Origin: Bacteroidetes bacterium 43-93
GTDB taxonomy: Bacteria > Bacteroidota > Bacteroidia > Chitinophagales > Chitinophagaceae
Assembly: GCA_001897855.1 (NCBI GenBank)
Contig: MKUO01000023.1
Location: 124,001 to 188,000, forward strand
Direction of reading: 5' to 3'
Length of the DNA: 64,000 nucleotides
Below, in pieces: positions 16,344 through 30,046 of the stretch. Numbering within the stretch: the stretch's first letter is position 1; every line of letters begins with the position of its first letter. The position numbers and the translations under genes are program-made. The notes beneath the pieces are model-generated. The model ran no database searches, was not told where the DNA came from, and saw only the letters and a list, made by a program, of their open reading frames with translations.

Positions 16344-16784
16344 TTACAATCGTAACATTTCAACGTGTGGTATTCCGTCCTCTATATATACCTCACTATT
16401 TGCATTAAAACCAAAACTATTGTAAAAAGCCTCTAAATAGCATTGTGCACCAATGCGTATGGGTTGATTGCCATATTCCTCAACCAGTTTATCAATAGCA
16501 TTTTGCATCAGGTTTTTGCCAATTCCTTTACCACGATATTCCGGGTCGGTAACCACACGGCCAATCGACGCTTCTTTATAAGATACACCTGCAGGCAGCA
16601 GGCGACAATATGCTGCCAGTTCATCGTTCTGAAAACCCATCAGGTGCATCCCCTTCTGGTCTTTGTCATCCATATCCTGGAAAACGCAGTTCTGCTCTAC
16701 CACAAACACCTTTGCACGCAACTTCAGTATTGCGTACAACTCATAATTATTCAGCTCGTTAAATGCCTTGATCTTCCAGTTCAT
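16344..16784 (-). CDS. GNAT-family N-acetyltransferase, ElaA type
   Basis: 146 aa. ElaA-like features: L-R-A-K-V-F-V-V-E-Q near residue 22, A-Y-C-R-L-L-P near 58, the acetyl-CoA loop V-T-D-P-E-Y-R-G-K-G-I-G-K (77-89), and the C-terminal F-Y-N-S-F-G-F with I-P-H-V-E-M. Probable cytoplasmic acyltransferase of unknown substrate. It follows carB-C but a terminator separates them. Confidence 0.88.
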   Translation of the reverse strand: MNWKIKAFNELNNYELYAILKLRAKVFVVEQNCVFQDMDDKDQKGMHLMGFQNDELAAYCRLLPAGVSYKEASIGRVVTDPEYRGKGIGKNLMQNAIDKLVEEYGNQPIRIGAQCYLEAFYNSFGFNANSEVYIEDGIPHVEMLRL

Positions 16785-16823: not shown

Positions 16824-18023
16824 TTATTTACTCAGGTGCATGCTCCGTTCTTTATAAAGCTGCCTGAACCATGGGTCGCGCAGGTCTTTGATAAAGCGGA
16901 TGGCCTCACCCGTACTCTTCATTTCAGGGCCTAACTCTTTGTTTACGTTAGGGAATTTATTGAAGCTGAATACCGGCTCCTTCACAGCATATCCTTCCAG
17001 CTTTTTCTCCAGTTTGAAGTCTTTGAGTTTTTTCTCACCCAGCATTACTTTGGTAGCAACATTGAGGTAAGGGATGCCGTATGCTTTAGCTATGAAAGGC
17101 GTAGTGCGGCTGGCACGTGGATTAGCTTCGATCACATATACCTTACCATCTTTGATGGCATACTGTATGTTGATCAATCCACGCACATTCAGTTTCAGCG
17201 CTATTTTGCGGGCTATATCAGCCATTTCCTCTATCACCAATGGCCCCAGGTTGAAGCAAGGAAGCAATGCATGGCTGTCACCGCTGTGAATACCTGCCGG
17301 CTCAATGTGCTCCATGATACCCATGATATGCACTTCCTCTCCATCGCAGATAGCATCTACCTCCGCCTCCTGGCAACGATCCAGGAAGTGGTCGATCAGT
17401 ATCTTATTATTAGGCAGGTGCTTCAGCAGGCTGATCACACCCTTCTCCAATTCTTCATCATTGATAACGATACGCATCCTTTGTCCGCCCAACACGTACG
17501 AAGGACGTACCAGTACCGGGTAACCTACTTCCTTAGCTACCTCTATAGCTTCGTCGGTAGTGTAGGCCGTACCGTATTTAGGATAAGGGATGCCCAGGTC
17601 TTTCAGCATATCGCTAAAGCGGCCGCGATCTTCGGCGATATCCATATCATCAAAGGAAGTACCGATGATGCGGATGCCTTTTTCGTGGAGCTTTTTAGCC
17701 AGTTTCAGGGCAGTTTGACCACCCAGCTGAACGATGACACCATAAGGTTGCTCATGTTCTATGATTTCCCAAAGATGTTCCCAGTACACCGGCTCGAAGT
17801 ATAGCTTATCCGCTATATCGAAATCGGTGGATACCGTTTCAGGATTACAATTGACCATAATGGCCTCATAACCACACTCCTTAATGGCCATCAGGCCGTG
17901 TGTGCAGCAATAATCGAACTCAATACCCTGCCCGATCCTATTGGGTCCTGAACCCAATACAATTATCTTCTTATTATTACCAGGGATTGATTCGTTGAAC
18001 AGAATGGAAGACGACGAACTCAT
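16824..18023 (-). CDS. carB: Carbamoyl-phosphate synthase large chain, C-terminal half (split CarB)
   Basis: 399 aa from the ATG at 18023. It begins in the inter-half linker (N-E-S near residue 11) and then has the G-S-G-P-N-R-I-G-Q-G-I-E-F-D-Y-C-C and N-C-N-P-E-T-V-S-T-D-F signatures of the second carboxyphosphate/carbamate ATP-grasp half, V-L-G-G-Q-R-M, and N-P-R-A-S-R-T-T-P-F. It ends about where Bacteroidota CarB ends, without the MGS allosteric domain. This half phosphorylates carbamate to carbamoyl phosphate and needs the N-terminal half (25024-26667), 7 kb away. It has its own promoter element; an in-frame TTG at 18032 falls inside that element and is rejected as start. Confidence 0.93.
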   Translation of the reverse strand: MSSSSSILFNESIPGNNKKIIVLGSGPNRIGQGIEFDYCCTHGLMAIKECGYEAIMVNCNPETVSTDFDIADKLYFEPVYWEHLWEIIEHEQPYGVIVQLGGQTALKLAKKLHEKGIRIIGTSFDDMDIAEDRGRFSDMLKDLGIPYPKYGTAYTTDEAIEVAKEVGYPVLVRPSYVLGGQRMRIVINDEELEKGVISLLKHLPNNKILIDHFLDRCQEAEVDAICDGEEVHIMGIMEHIEPAGIHSGDSHALLPCFNLGPLVIEEMADIARKIALKLNVRGLINIQYAIKDGKVYVIEANPRASRTTPFIAKAYGIPYLNVATKVMLGEKKLKDFKLEKKLEGYAVKEPVFSFNKFPNVNKELGPEMKSTGEAIRFIKDLRDPWFRQLYKERSMHLSK

Positions 18024-18029
18024 GAGCTG

Positions 18030-18037
18030 CAAAGTTA
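18030..18037 (-). promoter_or_regulatory. -7 element for carB C-terminal half
   Basis: Minus strand reads TAACTTTG, exact TAnnTTTG, 6 nt from the ATG at 18023, predicting a leaderless transcript separate from the sxtJ operon read-through. Confidence 0.6.
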
Positions 18038-18041
18038 ATGA

Positions 18042-18404
18042 CTACCACGGATTATTGAGGTCGTTTTTTGTAAAAAGATGGTCGCGAATTTTAAAATTAC
18101 TGCCAACCGGCTTTTTTAAGGTAACCCCTGTTTTGCCTAAAAGCCGCATCAGCAAAGCAACAGGAGTCAAAACCACCCAGTAAATAAGGGTGAGGAAAAC
18201 TATATTATTAATTTTTCCTATAACCCCAGTGAGCATGCCCCACCATTTGTGTACAAACCCCGCAAAAGCGGAAGATGCCAGGCCGAAGATGCCAATCACA
18301 AAAGCTACGTAGAGGATCTGCGGCCTTTTTGTAATAAAGTAGAGCAGCAAGCCCACCAGTACGATGGCCAGTATAGACTCCTTCTTTTTTACAAGCTCTT
18401 CCAT
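18042..18404 (-). CDS. SxtJ-family membrane protein
   Basis: 120 aa from the ATG at 18404, which overlaps the stop of the small upstream gene (TAATG), so the two are coupled. Three hydrophobic segments (near 12-26, 31-50, 64-85) and a C-terminal basic tail with G-K-T-G-V-T-L-K-K-P. The family is named for its link with carbamoyltransferases; its role is unknown, possibly a membrane partner of the modification system. Located 18 nt upstream of carB-C. Confidence 0.78.
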   Translation of the reverse strand: MEELVKKKESILAIVLVGLLLYFITKRPQILYVAFVIGIFGLASSAFAGFVHKWWGMLTGVIGKINNIVFLTLIYWVVLTPVALLMRLLGKTGVTLKKPVGSNFKIRDHLFTKNDLNNPW

Positions 18405-18550
18405 TAGAACAAAGTATATATAAATGGCGCAAGGCCTGTATTCGCAGCAATGATCAGCACGGCTATCAGCAGCAGGGCGATGATAATGGGGGTGAGCCAC
18501 CATTTTTTACGCTCTTTGAGAAACAACCATAGGTCTTTTAAAAATTCCAT
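18404..18550 (-). CDS. DUF5989-type small membrane protein of the carbamoyltransferase module
   Basis: 48 aa, start ATG at 18550. Amphipathic N-terminus (M-E-F-L-K-D-L-W-L-F-L-K-E-R-K-K-W-W) followed by one membrane span (about 20-42). This is the expected tiny partner found between carbamoyltransferase and SxtJ genes in many bacteria. It lies 25 nt after the carbamoyltransferase and its TAA overlaps the SxtJ ATG. Function unknown. Confidence 0.75.
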   Translation of the reverse strand: MEFLKDLWLFLKERKKWWLTPIIIALLLIAVLIIAANTGLAPFIYTLF

Positions 18551-18575
18551 ACGCTTCAAAAATAGGGTTAATAAA

Positions 18576-20432
18576 TCAATCGCCTGCAAACCGGCGCTTC
18601 CAGCGGTCTTTATTATCAGCATCGGGTTGCCCTTCTTTATATAGCACAAAATTGCCCATTACCAGCATATCCATATCCGTTTGCATAAAACAGCGGTAGG
18701 CATCATCCGGGCTGCAGACAATAGGTTCGCCCCGAACGTTGAAGGAGGTATTGATCAATACCCCGTAACCGGTGAGCTTTTTAAATGCATATAATAACTG
18801 ATATACCTGCGGATTGGCATCTTCTGCCACCGTTTGTATGCGGGCCGAGAAGTCTATGTGGGTAATAGCAGGTAATTCGCTACGCTGCACATACAGCTTT
18901 TCCATTAGGGAGAGGCTCTGATAATTATCAGGTAATGCTTTGCGGTATTGTTCCTTTATGGGATGCACAAAAAGCATATAAGGCGATGGCTGCTGCAAAC
19001 CAAACAAACGCTCCGCCTCTTCCTGCAGCATCAGCGGTGCGAACGGACGGAAACCTTCGCGGAACTTGATCTTGATGTTGAGCTTCTTCTGCATTTCGGG
19101 GTTGCGGGGATCGGCGAGGATACTGCGATGCCCTAAAGCACGCGGACCAAACTCCATCCTTCCCTGGAACCAACCTACTACTTTACCCGCAGCTATTTCC
19201 GCAGCTATCGTATCAGCCAGCAGTATTTCGTCTTCTATATGATCGGCAGGAGCATCGTACCTGTTCAGCACTTTGATGATCTCCTTGTCTGTATATTCTA
19301 TACCCAGGTAGGCAGCGCGCATGGCATCTGTACCTACATTACCGCGAGGCTGTTCTTCGTGGATATGATATGCAGCCAATGCAGCGCCTACCGCACCACC
19401 GGCATCGCCGGCGGCAGGTTGTATATATATGTTCTTGAAAATGCCAGCTTCTGCCAGCTTGCCGTTAGCCACACAGTTGAGCGCTACGCCGCCTGCCATA
19501 CATAGGTTATCGCTGCCTGTGAGCTTCTTTGCTGTGGCAGCCAGCTTCATTACAATGTCTTCCGTTACCTGTTGAATGGCCAGGCCAAGATCGCAATGGT
19601 GTTGCTGCAGCGGCTCTTCTTCCGTTTTGCGGGGAAAGCCGAAGAGCTTTTGCCATTTGGCATCATCCACCATGCGCAATGCGGTGGCATAGGTAAAGTA
19701 GTCCTGGTTGAGGAAGATAGAGCCATCTTCATACACAGTACAGATATGATCGAGTATGATCTTCTTATATCGCTCCACTGCTTCACCATCATTGCCGTAA
19801 GGTGCAAGGCCCATCAGCTTATACTCACCGGAATTGACCTTGAAGCCGAGGAAATAAGTAAAGGCAGAGTATAGCAGCCCTACCGAATGCGGGAAATGCA
19901 ACTCCCTCAACACGGTAATATCCCTGCCTGAGCCTTTGCAAATAGAAGTAGTACACCATTCACCCACACCGTCTATGGTGAGTATGGCTGCATCGTCATA
20001 GGGTGACGGGTAAAACGCACTGGCGGCATGAGACAGGTGGTGCTCCGGGAAGAGCAGCTTTTGCTTGCCATTGCAACTTTCATCCACTTCTTTCAGCCCT
20101 TTGCGCACATTGTCTTTCAGGAAGACCTTCTCCTTAATCCATACCGGCATAGAGCGCATAAATGACATCCAACCCTTAGGGGAGAACGCATAGTAGGTCT
20201 CTAACAGCCGTTCGAACTTCAGGAGAGGCTTATCGTAGAAAGCAACAAAGTCTATATCATTGATATCCAGTCCGGCTTCATCCAGGCAGTAGCGTACCGC
20301 ATGTACCGGGAACCGTTCATCATGCTTCATGCGTGCGAACCGCTCTTCCTGGGCTGCAGCTACAATGATACCGTCCACTATTATAGCGGCGGCGGCATCG
20401 TGATAATAACAGGAAATACCGAGGATATTCAT
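18576..20432 (-). CDS. O-carbamoyltransferase, CmcH/NodU family
   Basis: 618 aa. N-terminal Kae1-like domain: G-I-S-C-Y-Y-H-D-A-A-A-A (4-15), Q-E-E-R-F-A-R, E-H-H-L-S-H-A-A-S-A-F-Y-P-S with the carbamoyl-phosphate/metal His residues, T-I-D-G-V-G-E-W, and G-G-V-A-L-N-C. The C-terminal domain has F-Q-G-R-M-E-F-G-P-R-A-L-G-H-R-S-I and N-T-S-F-N. It transfers a carbamoyl group from carbamoyl phosphate through carbamoyl-AMP to a hydroxyl. The acceptor is unknown, perhaps a glycan or lipid. Heads a carbamoyltransferase-DUF5989-SxtJ unit. Start at 20432; an upstream in-frame TTG lies in the -7 box. Confidence 0.93.
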   Translation of the reverse strand: MNILGISCYYHDAAAAIIVDGIIVAAAQEERFARMKHDERFPVHAVRYCLDEAGLDINDIDFVAFYDKPLLKFERLLETYYAFSPKGWMSFMRSMPVWIKEKVFLKDNVRKGLKEVDESCNGKQKLLFPEHHLSHAASAFYPSPYDDAAILTIDGVGEWCTTSICKGSGRDITVLRELHFPHSVGLLYSAFTYFLGFKVNSGEYKLMGLAPYGNDGEAVERYKKIILDHICTVYEDGSIFLNQDYFTYATALRMVDDAKWQKLFGFPRKTEEEPLQQHHCDLGLAIQQVTEDIVMKLAATAKKLTGSDNLCMAGGVALNCVANGKLAEAGIFKNIYIQPAAGDAGGAVGAALAAYHIHEEQPRGNVGTDAMRAAYLGIEYTDKEIIKVLNRYDAPADHIEDEILLADTIAAEIAAGKVVGWFQGRMEFGPRALGHRSILADPRNPEMQKKLNIKIKFREGFRPFAPLMLQEEAERLFGLQQPSPYMLFVHPIKEQYRKALPDNYQSLSLMEKLYVQRSELPAITHIDFSARIQTVAEDANPQVYQLLYAFKKLTGYGVLINTSFNVRGEPIVCSPDDAYRCFMQTDMDMLVMGNFVLYKEGQPDADNKDRWKRRFAGD

Positions 20433-20441
20433 TGACGGATT

Positions 20442-20449
20442 CAAAAATA
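20442..20449 (-). promoter_or_regulatory. -7 element for the carbamoyltransferase operon
   Basis: Minus strand reads TATTTTTG, exact TAnnTTTG, 9 nt from the ATG at 20432. Confidence 0.58.
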
Positions 20450-20481
20450 TAGAGCCAGTACCAAAAAGCAGAATCTGCGGA

Positions 20482-20521
20482 TGTTAGATTTTGTTAGAAA
20501 ATGCTAGTTTTTGCTAGTCTT
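20482..20521. repeat. Four 10-bp direct repeats TGYTAG, helically phased
   Basis: TTAG at 20484 and 20494 and CTAG at 20504 and 20514, each preceded by TG and followed by T/A-rich bases, repeat at exactly 10-bp spacing in the divergent region between the carbamoyltransferase and barrel genes. Possible multi-site operator; no regulator is identified. Confidence 0.5.
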
Positions 20522-20647
20522 TTTGGCGTTTTTGTTCTTTTTTTCTTTGTTTAAACAGTATCTGATACTTGCAAATTACCATCAATTTCTGAACTGGTAA
20601 AAAATTATATTTAACAGCTATGGGAGCGGTTTTCAGGCCATTTTCGG

Positions 20648-20655
20648 TATTTTTG
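20648..20655 (+). promoter_or_regulatory. -7 element for the first small outer-membrane barrel gene
   Basis: TATTTTTG, exact TAnnTTTG, 7 nt before the ATG at 20663. Confidence 0.58.
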
Positions 20656-20662
20656 CAATCAT

Positions 20663-21187
20663 ATGAAATGCCTGATCTCAACACTCTTCGCTATCCTTTT
20701 TGCCACAACTACTGCCCTTGCACAAAAACACACCAAAGTCCGCCCATCCTATAGCGATTATGAGCTGAAGGAAGAACCGGCGACCTATGCAGCCAGCGAA
20801 ATGGGCATTACAGCGGGGCCATACTTTGCAAATACAAACATCGATTTTGCCGCACGCATACAATACACAGCAAGGGTAGCAGACCATGTGCAGATTGCAC
20901 CGATGCTCACCTATGTTCATGATAATATTAGTAAAGAGTCTATCCTTGGGCCGGGCCTCAACATTAATTTCCCGATAGGTAAAAGCAAGTCCTATTTCTA
21001 TCCCGGCGTGGAATTCGGTTATTTTTTAAGGCAGGGGGTTTCTTATGGTGCGCATATTGGATACACCGCCAGCGTAAGCGAACACATTGGGATAAATATT
21101 GAACCGGGCCTTAGTTTTATACGCAATAACGCATTTGACAATAATGCCTTATTTTCTATTTTGTGTGGCATCAGGGTTAACCTGTAA
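20663..21187 (+). CDS. Small secreted beta-barrel protein, paralogue 1
   Basis: 174 aa. Signal peptide (1-20, A-L-A-Q). The mature part alternates polar and hydrophobic residues in about eight strand-like stretches and shares the pattern P-I-G-K-S-K-S-Y-F-Y-P-G-V-E (about 106-119) and H-I-G-Y-T with the next gene; it ends with a polar/aromatic strand (G-I-R-V-N-L). Likely an 8-stranded outer-membrane barrel (OmpW/OmpX-like fold), function unknown. Followed 20 nt later by its paralogue. Confidence 0.75.
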   Translation: MKCLISTLFAILFATTTALAQKHTKVRPSYSDYELKEEPATYAASEMGITAGPYFANTNIDFAARIQYTARVADHVQIAPMLTYVHDNISKESILGPGLNINFPIGKSKSYFYPGVEFGYFLRQGVSYGAHIGYTASVSEHIGINIEPGLSFIRNNAFDNNALFSILCGIRVNL

Positions 21188-21207
21188 TTGATATCACTAC
21201 CTACTTT

Positions 21208-21699
21208 ATGAAATACTGTTTTGCAGCGTTGCTGCTATTATCTGCTCATAACTTACGAGCACAAAACACAGATGTGCCCGGGAATGAGTTTCACATACAA
21301 AAACCGGCCTATGCGCAGGCAGAAATAGGCTTGAGCTTAGGCATTTATCGGGATCAACCTTCTCCTGACCAGGCTTTTAAACTGCAATACTTTGACCGCG
21401 GAAGCGATCATTTCCAATTTTCCATTGCTGTTGGTTTTATGCAATTTGATGGTATCAATATTGGTGCGGGATTGGGTGCCAACTTTCCTCTTAGCAGCGG
21501 ACGATCTTATTTTTATCCCGGCCTCGAGGTCAGCTATTATCGCACGGTAGGATTACTCGGAAGCGTACATATAGGCTACACTTATAGATTATCTCAACTT
21601 ATCAGCCTGAACCTGGAACCGGGATATACCTTCTTACGGCAAAACTCGCCTCCGTATTTTGACTTTTCCGGCCATGGGGGAGTGCGTTTCAATTTTTAA
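21208..21699 (+). CDS. Small secreted beta-barrel protein, paralogue 2
   Basis: 163 aa. Signal peptide (1-18, L-R-A-Q), then barrel-like strands with P-L-S-S-G-R-S-Y-F-Y-P-G-L-E and H-I-G-Y-T-Y matching the upstream gene, and a C-terminal G-V-R-F-N-F that fits the terminal-aromatic rule for outer-membrane proteins. A tandem duplicate of the preceding gene, now well diverged. Its end overlaps the convergent gene by 11 bp. Confidence 0.72.
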   Translation: MKYCFAALLLLSAHNLRAQNTDVPGNEFHIQKPAYAQAEIGLSLGIYRDQPSPDQAFKLQYFDRGSDHFQFSIAVGFMQFDGINIGAGLGANFPLSSGRSYFYPGLEVSYYRTVGLLGSVHIGYTYRLSQLISLNLEPGYTFLRQNSPPYFDFSGHGGVRFNF

Positions 21700-22378
21700 G
21701 ATATTTGTTTAAATCTATCCGGATTTTTTCTTCCTTTTTACCAGTGACACTGTAGGATAAAGCAACCACACCATTTTTTAATATAGGTTCGCTAAAAAGA
21801 AGCTCGGGATAATATATGTCGGCTTTTAGTGTTTCTTTTGCCAGCTTTGGTGGCAGTGGTATTTTGTAGATTTTATTTTTATCAACATTTACTATCGAAA
21901 TAGTTTTGTATCCTTTAAATTTTACGGACGAGGTATCATAGTTACTATTCGTAATTCCGATTACAAATGGAAACTTTTTATCCTCACTATAAAATATAAG
22001 CCGACCTACGTTCTTTATTTCTGACCCATTCTTTTTATTAAATAAATAATATTCGGGCGGTTCACAACATCCGGATATCACATTATTTCTTATCCAAAAT
22101 GTTGTATGGTATTCGGTCGCATAACTAAAGCCTAAACGGCCTGTATAACCTTGTAGCCCATCTCCCAAAGAGAATATTATTTTCGTTATTTCGGCGTGCT
22201 TGAATGTGAGCCAAGACGAGTCACAATTATAACTCCAATACAATTTAGCTTGATTATCGAAAACCAAGGGTGTGCAGTCTAGTAGAATTAGACTTGAATC
22301 TTTTTCACAACTACAAGTCTGGGCAAATGCAGGTAATTGCTGCATTACCAATAACGAAAGCAATATCCTCGCAATCAT
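21689..22378 (-). CDS. Hypothetical secreted protein
   Basis: 229 aa. Signal peptide (1-19, A-F-A-Q) followed by T-C-S-C-E; further Cys pairs at S-Y-N-C and S-G-C-C-E-P-P suggest disulfides. Mixed beta content, no family recognised. More AT-rich than its neighbours. Stands alone on the minus strand. Confidence 0.7.
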   Translation of the reverse strand: MIARILLSLLVMQQLPAFAQTCSCEKDSSLILLDCTPLVFDNQAKLYWSYNCDSSWLTFKHAEITKIIFSLGDGLQGYTGRLGFSYATEYHTTFWIRNNVISGCCEPPEYYLFNKKNGSEIKNVGRLIFYSEDKKFPFVIGITNSNYDTSSVKFKGYKTISIVNVDKNKIYKIPLPPKLAKETLKADIYYPELLFSEPILKNGVVALSYSVTGKKEEKIRIDLNKYLKN

Positions 22379-22442
22379 TCCTGAATTTATATTATTAATC
22401 CGGTTATAAGAAGTATAATGTAATCTAAGGTATCGGGATTAT

Positions 22443-22450
22443 TATATTTG
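22443..22450 (+). promoter_or_regulatory. -7 element for the NdpA-like gene
   Basis: TATATTTG, exact TAnnTTTG, 6 nt before the ATG at 22457. An in-frame TTG at 22448 lies in this element. Confidence 0.6.
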
Positions 22451-22456
22451 CGCGCA

Positions 22457-23503
22457 ATGATAGACTTAAGCAGCGCAGCACTCAAAAGCGTATCTGTACA
22501 TTTTGTTGGTAATAAAAGTGTAGGGGATGAACTGATCCATAGTAAAAAACCTATGGACCTGCCGGAGCGTGAAAAGAAGATATTGGCGAATGCCTTCCTC
22601 GGACGGTTTAAGCTGGAAACCAATCTTTATTCGTTTACCCATGGCGCCTCGCTGGACTATAACGAGGTCTATAACTATTGCCTGGAAACGCTTGCCGAGC
22701 CGGATGAACTGCATAAGAATGCGGTAAACATTACCAAACACCTATACGAGAGTGCTACACACCCCAAGATAAAAGCAGGGGATGTATATATATGCCTGTT
22801 TGAGAACTGCGTAGTGAATAGCGCTTATGTTGATGCCATTGGTATCTATAAAGCGGAAAGCAAGACCGACTTCCTGGACCTGAACATCGAGGACAAAGAA
22901 TTTGAACTGACGCTGCGGCAGGGTGTGGACATCAGCAAGGTAGATAAGGCTTGCCTGGTATTATCTACGAACGGCGACAAAGGCTTTGATGTGCTGATCT
23001 ATGATACCAATGGTAAAGGCGAAGAAGCTGTGTATTGGCGGGAGACGTTTTTGAACATTGCACCGCAGGCCAATGAGTACTACCAAACCAACGAGTTCCT
23101 GACCATTGCCAAGCAGTTTATAGCCAAGCAGGTGCCACAGGAATTTGAGATAGAAAAAACAGAGCAGATAGATATGCTCAACAAATCGGTAGAGTACTTC
23201 CGTGCCAATACATCGTTTGACAAAAAACAGTTTGAAGAAACGGTGATGGGTGATGAGAGTATGATACGATCGTTTCGCAAGTTTGAAGATGCTTATCGGG
23301 AGGATCATGATATAGACCTGCCGGACAGGTTTGATATATCTGCACAGGCGGTGAAGAAACAGGCGCGTGTATTTAAGAGTGTGCTAAAGCTGGACAGGAA
23401 CTTCCACATCTATATACATGGCGATAAAGACCTGATAGAAAAAGGCTATGACCCGGTATCGGGTAAGCATTTTTACAAGATCTATTTTGATGAGGAAGAA
23501 TAA
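22457..23503 (+). CDS. Nucleoid-associated protein, NdpA/YejK family
   Basis: 348 aa, start ATG at 22457 chosen because the next upstream start is inside the promoter. The NdpA family pattern is visible: F-V-G-N-K near 17, the central D-V-Y-I-C-L-F-E segment and G-I-Y-K-A-E-S-K-T-D-F-L, and a C-terminal I-Y-I-H-G-D with a catalytic-free basic end. Binds DNA as a nucleoid protein; some homologues occur in phage-defence contexts but nothing here suggests that. Monocistronic. Confidence 0.8.
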   Translation: MIDLSSAALKSVSVHFVGNKSVGDELIHSKKPMDLPEREKKILANAFLGRFKLETNLYSFTHGASLDYNEVYNYCLETLAEPDELHKNAVNITKHLYESATHPKIKAGDVYICLFENCVVNSAYVDAIGIYKAESKTDFLDLNIEDKEFELTLRQGVDISKVDKACLVLSTNGDKGFDVLIYDTNGKGEEAVYWRETFLNIAPQANEYYQTNEFLTIAKQFIAKQVPQEFEIEKTEQIDMLNKSVEYFRANTSFDKKQFEETVMGDESMIRSFRKFEDAYREDHDIDLPDRFDISAQAVKKQARVFKSVLKLDRNFHIYIHGDKDLIEKGYDPVSGKHFYKIYFDEEE

Positions 23504-23911
23504 TGTGGGAAATACTAAGCTCTAATTTCTAAATACTAATGCTCATAGCGAGTGTTACCACCTCCCCCTCGCTGCGCTTGGGTACTCCTCCCGCCATTAA
23601 TATTTGACGGTATCTTTTGCATGGCTATAAACAGGAGGAGAAGGGTTTGTGTGATTTTGATGCGCGAGGGCATGGCGCGAGTGGAACCACCCCGGCCTAT
23701 CGGCCACCCCTCCTATAAACAGGAGGGGAGAGGCTCGTGTAGATTGGATGCGCGAGGGCCTGGCGCGAGTGTAACCACCCCGGCCTATCGGCCACCCCTC
23801 CTATAAACAGGAGGGGAGAATTGGGTGCATCGACTATAATTCATCTAAAGAATTCTATTCAGGAGATTTCTCGCTGCAGTCGAAATGACGGCGCTTAAAG
23901 AAATTGCACCA
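23504..23911. other. Gene-free stretch holding a tandem repeat array
   Basis: About 400 bp between the NdpA-like gene and the SGNH hydrolase without a credible gene. It is dominated by 88-bp GC-rich repeat units and short inverted repeats, then an AT-rich segment near 23830-23880. Confidence 0.7.
23627..23816. repeat. 88-bp tandem repeat with GC-rich hairpins
   Basis: The start of the unit (ATAAACAGGAGG) occurs at 23627, 23715 and 23803, exactly 88 bp apart; two full units and one partial. Each junction forms a hairpin, CCCCTCCT/AGGAGGGG with a 6-nt loop (23707-23728 and 23795-23816), beside a GGCC-TATC-GGCC inverted repeat. Not a CRISPR: no unique spacers. It resembles the dispersed GC-rich intergenic elements seen in Bacteroidota genomes. 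Confidence 0.8.
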
Positions 23912-25024
23912 CTACTTAAAATACTGCCTAACGCTATCTGCTACAATGCGGGCGACTACGGGTGTACCGATGGATGTGTAGTGTGTATAGTCGTAATAAT
24001 AGCGGCTATCGTATGGCATGGCGGCGGCAATATCTACCACATTCAAATGATAGCTTTCTTTTAATTGCAACAAGACCTGGTTATACTCATCCAGTATTTT
24101 TCCCTGCAACATGGCATTACGGCCGGGGCTTACCTGTATATCTGCAAATTCGAGGCCGGTTGCCGGATCTTTGAAATGAGCATATAAGGAAGGCTGTGTA
24201 AGGAAGATGGCTTTGATGTTATTGGCCTTGCAAATAGAATCAAGAGTAAGGATACGCCTGCGATAAGATGCTAAATATGGTTGCTGTTGTGCTAATTGTT
24301 GTACTACAGTAGCACTATCTACTTTTAGTTTGGGTTCTTTCGCATAATTCACCTCGCGATGCACCAGGCCTTTTTCGTAAGCAATGCGGTAACGGTAGAT
24401 ATTTTCTAGCAGGGAACCTATCTCTGTTTTGCGGATGAGGGAGCGCATATAATCTTTAAAGCTGCGCTTATCCAACTCATTGGTATGGTACGTATCAAAG
24501 CCGCCCATTGCTTTTTCCTCCATATCATTCACACCGGTAAGGAAGATCACATAGTCGGGGTGCAGGGCAACGATATGATCCTGTAATAAAACAATATGTC
24601 CGAAAGTTGAAGTACCATCAAGGCCGGCATTATCGAGCCAGATGTTTGGTGCTACTTCTTTACGAAGGTCTTTCTTCAGCAACTCGGGCCAGGTAAGGCT
24701 ATCGCTATTGTAAGAACATTCTGTAGTACTGCCCCCAATGGTGATAATCTTGATCCATTTCGCCGGGTCTTTGGGCATTTCTTCTCCGCGCAAGCCTAAG
24801 GAATTGCGTGAATAGTAAATGACAGCTTCCAGCTTATTGCTGTGCGGATTTTTATGAACCAAATGCTGATTGGCGGGCAATACGATCTTACCATGTTTTA
24901 CCCGGAACGGAAAAGGGTGGAAGATGCGCAGTATCAGCTCTATCAAAAACAAAGCAACCAACAAACCGAAAAACAATGCTTTTACATTGCCCCAGAATGT
25001 TGGTTGCTTTTTAGTATTTTCCAT
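23912..25024 (-). CDS. Membrane-anchored SGNH/GDSL hydrolase
   Basis: 370 aa. One N-terminal membrane span (about 13-33). SGNH blocks: nucleophile S99 in I-G-G-S-T-T-E, G-V-N-D in the middle, and D345-Y-T-H348 as the C-terminal Asp/His pair. Probably a periplasmic esterase or O-acetyl transferase-like enzyme acting on a glycan. Its ATG overlaps the stop of the carB N-terminal half (TAATG), so the two are translated together. SGNH proteins of this type often accompany carbamoyltransferase/SxtJ/DUF5989 genes, which here lie 3.5 kb downstream. Confidence 0.87.
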   Translation of the reverse strand: MENTKKQPTFWGNVKALFFGLLVALFLIELILRIFHPFPFRVKHGKIVLPANQHLVHKNPHSNKLEAVIYYSRNSLGLRGEEMPKDPAKWIKIITIGGSTTECSYNSDSLTWPELLKKDLRKEVAPNIWLDNAGLDGTSTFGHIVLLQDHIVALHPDYVIFLTGVNDMEEKAMGGFDTYHTNELDKRSFKDYMRSLIRKTEIGSLLENIYRYRIAYEKGLVHREVNYAKEPKLKVDSATVVQQLAQQQPYLASYRRRILTLDSICKANNIKAIFLTQPSLYAHFKDPATGLEFADIQVSPGRNAMLQGKILDEYNQVLLQLKESYHLNVVDIAAAMPYDSRYYYDYTHYTSIGTPVVARIVADSVRQYFK

Positions 25025-26667
25025 TAAAGGAAGGTACTATAGAAATATGGTGTTTTAGCTTCGAATTCTGCGCTGCAGGTATCTACCATTTTGTATACGC
25101 GGGTGATACCGGCTTTTTTACGGAATTCGTACACTTCTTCTGCTGTACAGTCTTTTACCAGTTCCGCTATCTGCTCATCACTAAAGCCCATTACTTTGGC
25201 CTCACGCATCAGCTCTACCGGCATTTTTTCCAGGTGCTTGATCTCCTGGATTTGTTTTTCCAGGTTTACGATATCCTGTATCTGGTAAAGGAACCAGCGG
25301 TCGATCTGTGTGAGCTCGCGAAGCGTTTTGATAGATATGCCGGCAGCAATGGCTTCTTTGATGCGGAAGATCCTGTCCCACTTCGGCTTTTTCAATGTTT
25401 CCAGCAGTTCTTCCGGGCGCAGGCGGGCTGTGCTCAGGAAAGAAAGGCCGGTAGCGTTGTTCTCCAGGCTCTGGCAGGCTTTCTGTAGTGCCTCAGGGAA
25501 TGTGCGACCGATGGCCATTACTTCACCTACGGATTTCATCTGCAGGCCCAGTGTATCATCAGCACCTTTGAATTTATCGAAGTTCCAGCGAGGCATTTTT
25601 ACTATTACATAGTCGAGCGCAGGCTCAAAATATGCAGAAGTAGTTTGCGTGATCTGGTTTTTCAGTTCGTCAAGCGAATAACCCACCGCCAGTTTTGCTG
25701 CGATCTTAGCTATCGGGTAGCCGGTAGCTTTAGATGCCAGCGCAGAAGAGCGGCTTACGCGAGGGTTGATCTCGATAGCGATGATCTCTTCTGTTTCGGG
25801 GTTGAGCGCAAACTGTACGTTACAACCACCGGCGAAGTTGCCGAGGTCGCGCATCATTTTGATGGCTGTGTTACGCATCAGCTGGAAAGCTGTATCGCTG
25901 AGCGTCATAGCAGGTGCTACCGTGATACTATCACCGGTGTGGATACCCATCGGGTCGAAGTTCTCTACCGTACAGATGATCACCACATTGTCCCTGTTAT
26001 CGCGCAGCAGTTCCAGTTCAAATTCCTTCCAGCCGAGCATAGCGCGCTCTACCAGTACCTCGTGTATCGGGGAAGCGGTAAGGCCGCGTTCCAGCGCTAC
26101 ATCCAGTTCTTCTTTATGCATTACGAAACCCCCACCTGTACCACCAAGGGTGAAGGATGGGCGGATAACGATAGGCAGGCCTATTTCCTGTGCAAACTCT
26201 TTACCTTCCAGCAGGGAGTTAGCTGTTTTTGCAGAAGCTACCGGTACACCTATCTCGATCATCCATTTACGGAAGAGCTCGCGGTCTTCTGCTTTTTCTA
26301 TGGCTTTGATATCTACACCTATCAGGCGAATGTTGTATTGTTTCCAGATACCCAGCTCATCTGCTTCTTTTGCTAGGTTCAGTGCTGTCTGGCCACCCAT
26401 GGTAGGCAGTACGGCATCGATCTCGTTTTCCTGCAGTATTTTTTCAATGCTTTCTACCGTCAGTGGCAACAGGTACACCTTGTCTGCCATCATCGGGTCT
26501 GTCATAATAGTTGCGGGGTTGGAATTGATCAGGATCACTTTGATCCCTTCTTCCCGGAGGCTTCGTGCAGCCTGGGAACCGGAATAGTCAAACTCGCAGG
26601 CCTGGCCGATGATAATTGGTCCGGAACCTATGATCAGTACGCTTTTAATGGAAGTGTCTAGTGGCAT
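25024..26667 (-). CDS. carB: Carbamoyl-phosphate synthase large chain, N-terminal half (split CarB)
   Basis: 547 aa. It opens with [21 protein letters not shown] and [11 protein letters not shown], then the first ATP-grasp domain ([33 protein letters not shown]) and the oligomerization domain up to V-D-T-C-S-A-E-F and Y-F-Y-S-T-F. It stops there, in the linker where single-chain CarB continues. This half makes carboxyphosphate and carbamate from bicarbonate, ATP and glutamine-derived ammonia. With the C-terminal half the total is 946 aa, the normal Bacteroidota CarB size. Coupled to the SGNH gene. No carA in the window. Confidence 0.94.
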
Positions 26668-27412: not shown

Positions 27413-28165
27413 TTAGTTGGTGATCTTAGCAGCGAGGCTGATCTCGTCGTTTGTTTTTAATTCGTATAGCGCAGTACCACCCTCAATCATAGCTACCATC
27501 AGGTTATCAATGATGATGACATCATAGAATGTATTGCCTGCGAGTTGCTTTAATAACTTAGGCTGTATAGGGTTGCTGATATCATATACATTCAACCCGT
27601 TGGCACCATTACATACATAGAGTCTGTTATCTTTCATGCCCAAACCCCAGGGGCTTTCCATATTTACTGTAGTGCGGAGCAATGGCTGCATAATATATTT
27701 TACATCATACACCATCAGTGCATTGTTGGTACCACCGCAACGGCTGCCGCTACGCACAGTGACATACGCCAGTGAATCATTGGCTACTACGGGGTCACAG
27801 GCGCGCACGTGTTGTGCCTGCCCCAGCTTATCAGGGTGTGCAGGATCTGTTAATGAATACACATACATGGCAGTACTGGAGCCAATGAATAATTTGTCTT
27901 TGTAACTGTAGATGGTCTCGATGCTAAAACCTACATCTATAGTACCTTTTAATTGCGGGTGCGCGGTATTGGCCATACTGTAGGTATAGAGCTTGCTATC
28001 ATCTACCACGTAGAGATAATCCATAGCCGTAGTGAAACGGGCCAGTGAACCACCCTGGCCGGTATTGCTTGTGGATGTAGTTTTGTTTCCTGAAGAGGTG
28101 TCTGTTTTATCGCAGGAGGCAAACAATACAGCACCGGATATTATTAAGTAAAATAGCTTTTTCAT
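27413..28165 (-). CDS. LVIVD-repeat lipoprotein
   Basis: 250 aa. Lipobox F-A-S-C (C18), S/T/N-rich linker, then repeated strands of the LVIVD type: L-Y-T-Y-S-M-A-N-T-A-H-P, M-Y-V-Y-S-L-T-D-P-A-H-P, L-M-V-Y-D-V, L-N-V-Y-D-I-S-N-P-I-Q-P. These form a beta-propeller-like surface lipoprotein; function unknown. Paired with a second LVIVD gene 24 nt upstream. Confidence 0.82.
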   Translation of the reverse strand: MKKLFYLIISGAVLFASCDKTDTSSGNKTTSTSNTGQGGSLARFTTAMDYLYVVDDSKLYTYSMANTAHPQLKGTIDVGFSIETIYSYKDKLFIGSSTAMYVYSLTDPAHPDKLGQAQHVRACDPVVANDSLAYVTVRSGSRCGGTNNALMVYDVKYIMQPLLRTTVNMESPWGLGMKDNRLYVCNGANGLNVYDISNPIQPKLLKQLAGNTFYDVIIIDNLMVAMIEGGTALYELKTNDEISLAAKITN

Positions 28166-28189
28166 TAGTTTGGTTTTTTGCGGTTTTAA

Positions 28190-28750
28190 TTATCTGCTGC
28201 ATTGCGGATAGTTCAATGTTTTTTGTTCCCATCCTACAACAGTTCCTTTAGATCTGTCTACACATTCGTAATAGCCGGTGCCCGGCGGAAAGTTCTGATC
28301 TACCATGTGAAATACGCTGCTGATGCGATCGAGCAGTTTGATATCTTTTACATTGCTGATGTCGAGCACTACCAGGTCGTTCAGGTTGTTGGTGTACATC
28401 ACATTGTCCTTAATTGCCATCTCCTGCGCACCCAATACGTTAATAAAAGCCAGCTTTTGCGGGTTGGCAGGCTGCTTTACATCTATTACATGAATGCCTT
28501 TGCCTACTTCTACCTGGTAGAGGGTATCTCCCTTTATATATATCTTGCCACCTTTATCGATAGTGCGTGGGTCTGATGACTTGATGATAGCAGCGGAAGA
28601 GTCCTTATTATATACAGGCGCCCATCCATCTACCTCGGCAGGTGGATTGGGTTTCGGATCCACGTGATGACGCTTTCGGTAAGGATCGCAGGACGAGAGG
28701 ATGATTGTACCCAGTAACAGGGTACAAAACAGAAGGTTATTTGGTCTCAT
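28190..28750 (-). CDS. LVIVD-repeat lipoprotein, short
   Basis: 186 aa. Lipobox L-S-S-C (C21), proline-rich linker, then LVIVD repeats (I-H-V-I-D-V-K-Q-P-A-N-P and L-V-V-L-D-I-S-N-V). Only about three repeats are present, fewer than in the adjacent gene. First gene of the two-gene unit; the 270 bp between it and mreB is AT-rich without another gene. Confidence 0.8.
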   Translation of the reverse strand: MRPNNLLFCTLLLGTIILSSCDPYRKRHHVDPKPNPPAEVDGWAPVYNKDSSAAIIKSSDPRTIDKGGKIYIKGDTLYQVEVGKGIHVIDVKQPANPQKLAFINVLGAQEMAIKDNVMYTNNLNDLVVLDISNVKDIKLLDRISSVFHMVDQNFPPGTGYYECVDRSKGTVVGWEQKTLNYPQCSR

Positions 28751-29023
28751 ATCAGATTTTTTGAAATTCAGGATCTATATAAAAAATGGTAATTAATGCC
28801 GAAACAAATTCCGTGCTAAACTGTAACACATTCAGAAAATTCTTCAAGAAAAAATTCCGGGCAATATATTATGTAATAGATAATATTTAGGCGATTTGAA
28901 CTTTGAGTTACAATTCAATTATCTTTACCAAATCGCTGAAATTTTTACGTTTTTGCTTAAAAACGGGGTAATTTTCCGCAACTTTGCCATCATTTTATAC
29001 AAAAAGCAGCCGAAGGAGCATAT

Positions 29024-30046
29024 ATGGGATTGTTTAGTTTTTTAACTCAAGAAATTGCAATTGACCTGGGTACAGCGAATACCCTTATTATACATAACGA
29101 CCAGGTAGTGGTGGACGAGCCATCTATCGTTGCTACCGACCGTATGACGAGTAAGATCGTTGCGGTGGGTAAAAAAGCGATGATGATGCACGAAAAAACC
29201 CACGAAAACCTGAAAACAATCCGACCGTTAAAAGACGGTGTAATTGCAGACTTCAACGCGGCTGAAGGTATGCTGAGGGAAATGATCAAAATGGTGTATC
29301 CAAAGAAGCCATTGTTCCCGCCAAGCTGGAAGATGGTTATATGCATACCATCGAGCATTACCGAAGTAGAAAAACGTGCGGTACGCGACTCTGCAGAACA
29401 GGCAGGCGCGAAGGAAGTATATATGATACATGAGCCAATGGCTGCTGCATTGGGTATAGGTATAGATGTAGAAGAGCCAACCGGTAACATGATCATTGAT
29501 ATAGGCGGTGGTACAACAGGCATCTCTGTAATAGCACTGGCAGGTATTGTATGCGACCAGTCTATACGTATTGCAGGTGATGAATTCACAGCAGACATTA
29601 TGGAAGCGATGCGCCGCTATCATAGCTTAATGATAGGTGAGCGTACTGCGGAACAAATAAAAATACAAGTAGGCTCTGCGCTGAAAGAACTGGACACTCC
29701 GCCGGATGATATAGCTGTTAACGGACGCGACCTGGTAACGGGTATTCCTAAACAGATCATGGTATCTTACCAGGAAGTAGCAGAAGCACTTGATAAATCT
29801 ATCTTCAAAATAGAAGAAGCTATATTAAAGGCGCTGGAAAGCACACCGCCGGAACTGGCTGCGGATATTTATCGCCGCGGGCTGTACCTGACAGGTGGTG
29901 GCGCATTGCTGCGCGGCCTTGATAAGCGTATCTCCCATAAGATCAAACTACCGGTTCATGTAGCAGACGATCCTCTGCGCGCGGTAGTGCGTGGTACAGG
30001 TATGGCGCTGAAGAACATTGCCAAGATGCCGTTTTTAATGAAATAG
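29024..30046 (+). CDS. mreB: Rod-shape determining protein MreB
   Basis: 340 aa. Actin-fold phosphate loops: I-D-L-G-T-A-N-T near 14 and I-D-I-G-G-G-T-T near 160, R-A-V-R-D-S near 120, and the adenosine loop L-T-G-G-G-A-L-L near 290. Forms membrane-associated filaments that direct lateral cell-wall synthesis. Unusual for this window, it has a clear Shine-Dalgarno (AAGGAG, about 6 nt before the ATG) and a longer leader. mreC and mreD follow. Confidence 0.97.
   Translation: MGLFSFLTQEIAIDLGTANTLIIHNDQVVVDEPSIVATDRMTSKIVAVGKKAMMMHEKTHENLKTIRPLKDGVIADFNAAEGMLREMIKMVYPKKPLFPPSWKMVICIPSSITEVEKRAVRDSAEQAGAKEVYMIHEPMAAALGIGIDVEEPTGNMIIDIGGGTTGISVIALAGIVCDQSIRIAGDEFTADIMEAMRRYHSLMIGERTAEQIKIQVGSALKELDTPPDDIAVNGRDLVTGIPKQIMVSYQEVAEALDKSIFKIEEAILKALESTPPELAADIYRRGLYLTGGGALLRGLDKRISHKIKLPVHVADDPLRAVVRGTGMALKNIAKMPFLMK

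Follow-up and report, generated by a model that had tools for sequence, protein, structure and literature searches.

The large subunit of carbamoyl phosphate synthetase (CPS), encoded by carB, is not always made as a single chain, and split carB genes are known from Methanocaldococcus. In Aquifex aeolicus, according to a review, CPS is split into the separate components CPS.A, CPS.B and GLN, which is a precedent for a working split synthetase, and enzymes of the CmcH/NodU kind are described there as carbamoylating hydroxyl groups using carbamoyl phosphate and ATP (PMC6022934). Here we describe a stretch of 64,000 nt from Bacteroidetes bacterium 43-93, a member of the Chitinophagaceae (the window; contig MKUO01000023.1, positions 124,001–188,000; coordinates below count from window start), in which two halves of carB flank a putative O-carbamoylation cassette or module: an SGNH hydrolase, a carbamoyltransferase (CTase), a DUF5989 protein and an SxtJ-like protein. 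As in the split CPS of Aquifex, the large subunit is cut between its two synthetase domains and both pieces are complete; unlike in Aquifex, the pieces enclose a cassette predicted to use carbamoyl phosphate, and splitting has recurred within one bacterial family that also contains close relatives with an intact gene. On balance, if only slightly so, it is probable that the two halves make a working two-piece CPS large subunit and that the cassette was inserted between them to form an operon of maker and user of carbamoyl phosphate, which was later broken in the window's genus. Genomes, loci and genera are denoted by G, L and g numbers, respectively, G000 being the window's genome and g1 its genus.

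Both halves lie on the minus strand, 7 kb apart on one 433 kb contig (Table 1). The N half (carBN) covers positions 3–543 of the model TIGR01369 and the C half (carBC) positions 551–942; they align with residues 1–547 and 558–919 of Escherichia coli CarB, and the large-subunit domains D1, D2 and D3 of Pfam are present. Their sum of 946 amino acids (aa) is what would be expected of a CarB that ends near position 933 of TIGR01369, where most CarB end class-wide among the matches listed (13 listed genomes reach 1051–1052), so that nothing typical is missing from the window's CarB and the loss of a domain can be discarded. A TIGR01369 search of the window's own genome gave no further full-strength carB, the other three matches being partial (about 645–879, 50–68 bits), and one carA was found, on another contig; carA was single in 13 of 13 genomes checked. 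carB is thus present as separate synthetase-domain genes without a full-length copy, as in the Aquifex-type split CPS, and since there is no other full-strength carB the halves presumably supply carbamoyl phosphate. Both are under purifying selection: between the window and four split genus-mates, nonsynonymous divergence (dN) of carBN and carBC is 0.04–0.09 and synonymous divergence (dS) at least 1.3 or saturated. At the junctions, carBN and the SGNH gene share a TAATG, read in the sequence, and the ATG of carBC follows the SxtJ stop by 18 nt. An assembly error is unlikely, because G008, a separate assembly, has the same gene order and halves 99 and 100% identical to the window's; the contig is 433 kb long and nested forms occur elsewhere. 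The preliminary description of this DNA, which had reported two complete halves on one strand 7 kb apart with no domain lost and a normal summed length, the TAATG coupling, carBC directly behind SxtJ and the cassette between the halves, is therefore confirmed on these points, and neither a second full-length carB nor a misassembly, both of which it had named as dangers, was encountered.

Table 1. Features of the carB locus and its surroundings, in window coordinates (ORF, open reading frame).
Feature	Position	Strand	Remarks
carB N half (carBN)	25024..26667	-	547 aa; preATP-grasp, ATP-grasp, oligomerisation domain
SGNH/GDSL hydrolase	23912..25024	-	370 aa; hydrophobic stretch at the N terminus, by eye
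Extra genes between SGNH and CTase	20663..23503	mixed	two small ORFs (+), 229 aa ORF (-), NA37 nucleoid-associated protein (+)
O-carbamoyltransferase (CTase), GdmN/TobZ/NodU kind	18576..20444	-	622 aa
DUF5989 small protein	18404..18550	-	48 aa; one hydrophobic stretch by eye; Pfam run on ORF 18404-18649, match at 34-81
SxtJ-like protein	18042..18404	-	120 aa, hydrophobic by eye; overlaps DUF5989 stop; Pfam run on ORF 18042-18503
carB C half (carBC)	16824..18023	-	399 aa from ATG; 402 aa from upstream TTG
GNAT acetyltransferase, C-half flank	16344..16784	-	adjoins intact carB in G012 too
250 aa ORF (-) and presumed MreB-like gene (+), N-half flank	27413..30046	mixed	adjoin intact carB in G001, G011, G012 too

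All four proteins of the cassette were recognized by Pfam. The CTase carries both Carbam_trans_N and Carbam_trans_C and, like CTases of the CmcH/NodU type (GdmN, TobZ, decarbamoylnovobiocin carbamoyltransferase), can be aligned over a long stretch, with E values of 1e-75 to 1e-89 for solved GdmN/TobZ. It is not NodU itself, as it scores 169.7 bits against the NodU equivalog model, far under the cut-off of 1000, and, in contrast to CmcH/NodU-type enzymes, it is accompanied by an SGNH hydrolase and a pair of small hydrophobic proteins, not by antibiotic genes. The SxtJ match (PF19588) is weak, 25.6 bits against a Pfam cut-off of 24.4; Pfam named this family after a protein of the saxitoxin operon, and there is no sign here of toxin synthesis. 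SGNH hydrolases have Ser, Asn and Asp-x-x-His blocks as catalytic motifs, and in the window's protein (Lipase_GDSL_2, 42.8 bits) the GGS, GxND and DxxH blocks are invariant in 13 aligned sequences; against solved structures it gave ten weak matches (E up to 0.1, best 0.0004). In a profile scan of genome contigs with a CTase alignment, the best 80 of at least 566 loci were kept; DUF5989 accompanies the CTase in 71 and SxtJ in 70 of these 80, so that CTase–DUF5989–SxtJ is a widespread cassette, the same three genes being placed here between carB halves. Small hydrophobic partners, the SGNH hydrolase, and a GT2 glycosyltransferase with a UDP-galactopyranose mutase encoded on the other strand between SxtJ and carBC in G330 would make a cell-surface glycan or glycolipid the most likely target.

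The genus g1 contains intact, nested and broken forms. Nine of its 15 genomes have both carB halves, and four (G001, G005, G011 and G012) have one uninterrupted carB at the syntenic place, that of G011 being cut by a contig end; there remain G013, where a fragment of the C half is seen at the edge of a contig, and G007, nominally 100% complete, in which carA is present and no carB was matched at E 1e-30, representing either a gap or a loss. The single carB is accompanied by the gene which we take to be MreB-like in 4/4 genomes, by the 250 aa ORF in three, by what is presumably a TonB receptor in two and by GNAT in one. Where carB is split, the N half has stayed on the MreB side and the C half on the GNAT or TonB side, without exception among the nine genomes. 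No CTase was found in the intact-carB genomes G001 and G005 (E 1e-150). The module lies between the halves in G000, G008 and G014. In G002, G003, G004, G009 and G010 the halves are 76–107 kb apart and module genes still flank a half, that is, in five of six far-split genus-mates, with differing break points: SGNH adjoins the N half in G002, G009 and G010, and the CTase is found on the C side in G002, G003, G004 and G010 and on the N side in G009.

Outside the genus, the module is also found between carB halves in G041, in six g84 genomes and in L276, a locus of a Bacteroidetes metagenome-assembled genome (MAG; JAFEAB010000042.1) which, like L229 and L248 below, came from the profile scan. On the same strand in G041, carBN and SGNH are 3 nt apart and SGNH overlaps the CTase by 4 nt; G396 has separate carBN, SGNH, CTase and carBC ORFs in the compact form. 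L276 has the order carBN–CTase–SGNH–DUF5989–SxtJ–carBC, with 2 nt between carBN and CTase and 4 nt between SxtJ and carBC, and its SGNH differs from that of the window. Judged purely by spacing, the compact loci may be co-transcribed, while two transcription units are more likely in the window itself, as other-strand genes lie between. The genes at 20663..23503 are regarded as extra because the compact forms L091, L078 and L276 are without them. Between NA37 and SGNH, where the extra genes lie, there is an 88 bp tandem repeat (2.2 copies, 23625–23819). Scans of the window found no tRNA and no excess of promoters (21 against 20.8 in shuffles); terminator-like sites, on both strands, exceeded shuffles (19 against 10.3, s.d. 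2.9). Several expectations of the preliminary description are thus borne out, namely single-chain relatives, the same halves flanking the same module elsewhere, and later additions between SGNH and CTase; its converse case, in which all close relatives would be split without the module, is not what the genus presents, with the module in G008 and G014 and an intact carB in four genus-mates. As separate observations, G302 (g84; L086, L072) has, besides split carB with the module, a second and intact carB on a different contig, which clusters with outgroup sequences and was perhaps acquired horizontally, and pairs of SGNH and CTase away from carB occur in intact-carB genomes such as G073 (SGNH 46%).

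Fission of carB extends far beyond these lineages. At least 117 of 394 family genomes have the halves as separate genes, a lower bound, as the 133 genomes examined, one of them outside the 394, did not include every genome with two matches. Among 20 regions with closely paired halves, the module lies between them in eight (G008, G041 and six of g84), SGNH only in one (G368, whose CTase is on another contig) and neither in 11. Other gaps hold ORF6N-like genes (g83), a PIN gene (G322), a methyltransferase (G342), a small ORF, a stop or a short spacer, and in G147, G059 and G025 the halves are split with nothing between. In g83, ORF6N-like ORFs were seen in L075, L079, L080 (in two pieces), L081 and L082, with their identity tested by Pfam in L082/G172 only; it looks as if an ORF6N-type gene were a frequent visitor of the carB linker site. 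The halves in G025 (L074) are in one frame, 47 codons apart, with a single stop, possibly a fresh fission or a sequencing error, and in G084 (L166, L167) two N halves, each on its own contig, accompany a single C half. An intein or in-frame insertion, suggested by the search flagging G025, G301, G353, G368 and G396 as one frame, was ruled out by in-frame stops in the DNA between the halves of the first four and by separate ORFs in G396. In other families, G423 and G570 each gave two TIGR01369 matches with N-half-like best scores, so that split carB may occur outside the family as well. Among the 50 genomes fetched in which the halves are far apart, module genes were near a half only in G173 (g84).

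In the intact genes read, the linker measures 15–16 aa in the outgroup, 15–17 in most family genera and 23–27 in the intact genes of g1, g43 and g32. As the latter are nested among splits, either a longer linker eased fission or these genes were re-fused. Because most splits examined are free of the module, empty gaps exist and the splits are not one clade, fission at the domain linker is an event in its own right that has recurred, and entry of the module may have come later. Of the earlier proposal that the module entered at the linker, the location is upheld, also by the compact relatives; the module as cause of the split is not, as most splits examined are without it. The causal account, with a module that split carB and with co-regulation, thus finds support only in part.

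How many times, then, was the module joined to carB? Phylogenies were built from 117 CarB rows, excluding matches under 55% identity, which removed most outgroup loci, and, for want of a partner half, G013, G277 and the second N half of G084; three further outgroup rows were left out of the half trees and of the approximately unbiased (AU) test of module hosts, and AU tests were run on 99 rows, without G089, G081 and surplus rows of six genera. The CarB tree needs seven changes between split and intact, at least five of them forced by well-supported branches. A single clade was rejected for all splits (p-AU 1e-5), for the 17 module-bearing rows (p-AU 8.8e-54) and for g1 plus L276 (p-AU 1.7e-6), and was not rejected for g1 by itself (p-AU 0.46). 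Both halves of g1 group with genus-mates or near kin; g84 stands with intact g3/g72/g86 and kin in the N-half tree (support 95) and with g46/L276 in the C-half tree (support 82). For the CTase, trees were made without stand-alone family copies and without L213, a duplicate of G003, the reduced set for AU tests using 33 of 78 other CTases, and two groups of carB-linked copies were needed. With the CTase of G330 (g84) as query, the nearest copy outside g84 was that of G185 (70%), whose intact carB is on another contig; eight copies not from g84, G041 or g1 ranked above G041 (G133 and G042 being without known carB position), and 28 such copies outscored the best of g1. The g84 CTase is thus 70% identical to G185 and 67% to G350, both away from carB, against 61–63% to g1, while the CTase of G041 found eight g84 copies first and then G185. 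As the module hosts are not one CarB clade, the data are best read as two or three separate joinings, though this is a reading rather than a proof: at least two, in g1 and in g84 with or without G041, and probably a third in L276. The CTase comparisons argue partly for and partly against a single origin of the nested form; separate joinings are preferred.

The association of CTase with carB was also examined across genomes. The CTase is present in 60 of 388 family genomes, in 59 as one copy, and lies within about 6 kb of a carB half in 15 (seven of g1, G041 and seven of g84), all of which have split carB or only a half found (C half only in G013 and G376). The other 45 comprise 37 with a known carB position, four without a carB match and four with unlisted positions; none of the 37 has the two nearer than 84 kb on one contig (G320 nearest), most having them on different contigs, so that contig ends limit the distance. 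As a class-wide control, DUF5989 was found in 47 of 197 genomes; besides the window's there are 35 with a listed carB position, nine unlisted and two without a carB match, and DUF5989 lies within 20 kb of carB in 0/35 of those listed (nearest G407, 20.7 kb). Since the genomes are related, such counts amount to few independent events. The module is one among several occupants of a site at which fission recurs, but it is over-represented there.

In the mechanism that we propose, the carB domain linker, variable in length among relatives, would have been broken so that each synthetase domain became its own gene, the pieces reassembling with CarA. Insertion of the cassette, which is probably membrane-associated, between them would have created the operon carBN–SGNH–CTase–DUF5989–SxtJ–carBC, from which the enzyme making carbamoyl phosphate and the one using it may be transcribed together, and in g1 the operon would later have been broken by extra genes and rearrangement. 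Coupling of carbamoyl phosphate supply and use would be plausible. That carB was repeatedly cut at its linker and repeatedly captured a product-using cassette inside, selection for supply–use coupling driving the convergence, is a possibility that we offer tentatively.

Several observations weigh against this account. Module genes were found in 0/48 far-split genomes outside g1, g84 and g28, in flanks of 8.5 kb where the contig allows, some ended by contig ends and in G277 on the N side only, searched by tblastn (E 1e-4) with the window's own genes, from which strongly diverged SGNH or SxtJ could escape; as most examined split carB are without the module, the split does not depend on it. SGNH and CTase are separated by plus-strand genes in the window, and the halves are 73–107 kb apart in six of the nine split genomes of g1, including G006 (73 kb), which has no module gene near either half, so that tight co-expression has not been maintained. 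Outside the family, L229 and L248 have the cassette on the strand opposite to carB, 2–5 kb away, and no split is visible; in L229 (a Flavobacteriaceae MAG) both carB parts adjoin each other at about 4.5 kb from the cassette, and in L248 (a Balneolales MAG) only the N part is seen, at a contig end, about 2 kb away. As for separate joinings, g84 plus G041 as one CarB clade was not rejected (p 0.22), a tree uniting all carB-linked CTases outscores the free tree (p-AU 0.93, in the set without stand-alone family copies), and the best match of the window's CTase outside the genus is the carB-linked copy of G302 (g84; 892.6 bits). It is followed by G115, G237, G303 and G016, all away from carB, at 888.9–883.1 bits, a ranking in which g1 is no closer to carB-linked g84 copies than to stand-alone ones.

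The rival that survives best, though we think it rather unlikely, holds that the carB linker is a tolerant break site and the cassette one of many visitors without functional link. The number of split genomes, the variety of gap contents (ORF6N in G172, PIN, methyltransferase, SGNH alone, nothing) and the module-free far-split genomes agree with it. The CTase, however, is confined to 60 of 388 family genomes, and yet three of the eight lineages of the family sample whose halves are linked, by our own grouping, have it in the gap (g1, g84 and g28); adding L276, which came from a CTase query, would make this four of nine. Moreover, the module has the same reading direction, with spacings of a few nt in G041 and L276, and away from these lineages the CTase never comes within 84 kb of carB on one contig in the 37 other family genomes. 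It is improbable that one ancient cassette insertion split carB, other splits having lost the cassette and intact genes having re-fused: the united CTase tree, the narrow lead of G302 and the 23–27 aa linkers, which could be fusion scars, would suit such a history, but the CarB tests reject a single clade both for the module hosts and for the splits, the CTase of g84 resembles copies remote from carB more than it does those of g1, and L276 has another gene order and another SGNH. Least credible is a transfer of a ready-made carBN–module–carBC between species by homologous recombination through conserved carB flanks, as, even if carB-linked CTases may be closer kin than their CarB hosts and the half trees place g84 differently, the halves of g1 keep to their own kin and the conflict between the half trees is not strongly supported.

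The nested arrangement is real and repeated. A split synthetase was already known, and the nested user cassette was not encountered in the literature searched, where no title dealt with split carB genes of Bacteroidota or with carbamoylation genes placed inside carB. Within one family an essential metabolic gene has undergone fission repeatedly while close relatives keep it whole, and several lineages have presumed users of its product in the gap. These genomes therefore offer natural before-and-after pairs in which operon nesting as supply–demand coupling of an unstable intermediate could be tested, and the nesting suggests that the CTase–DUF5989–SxtJ cassette, about which little is known, takes carbamoyl phosphate as its donor.

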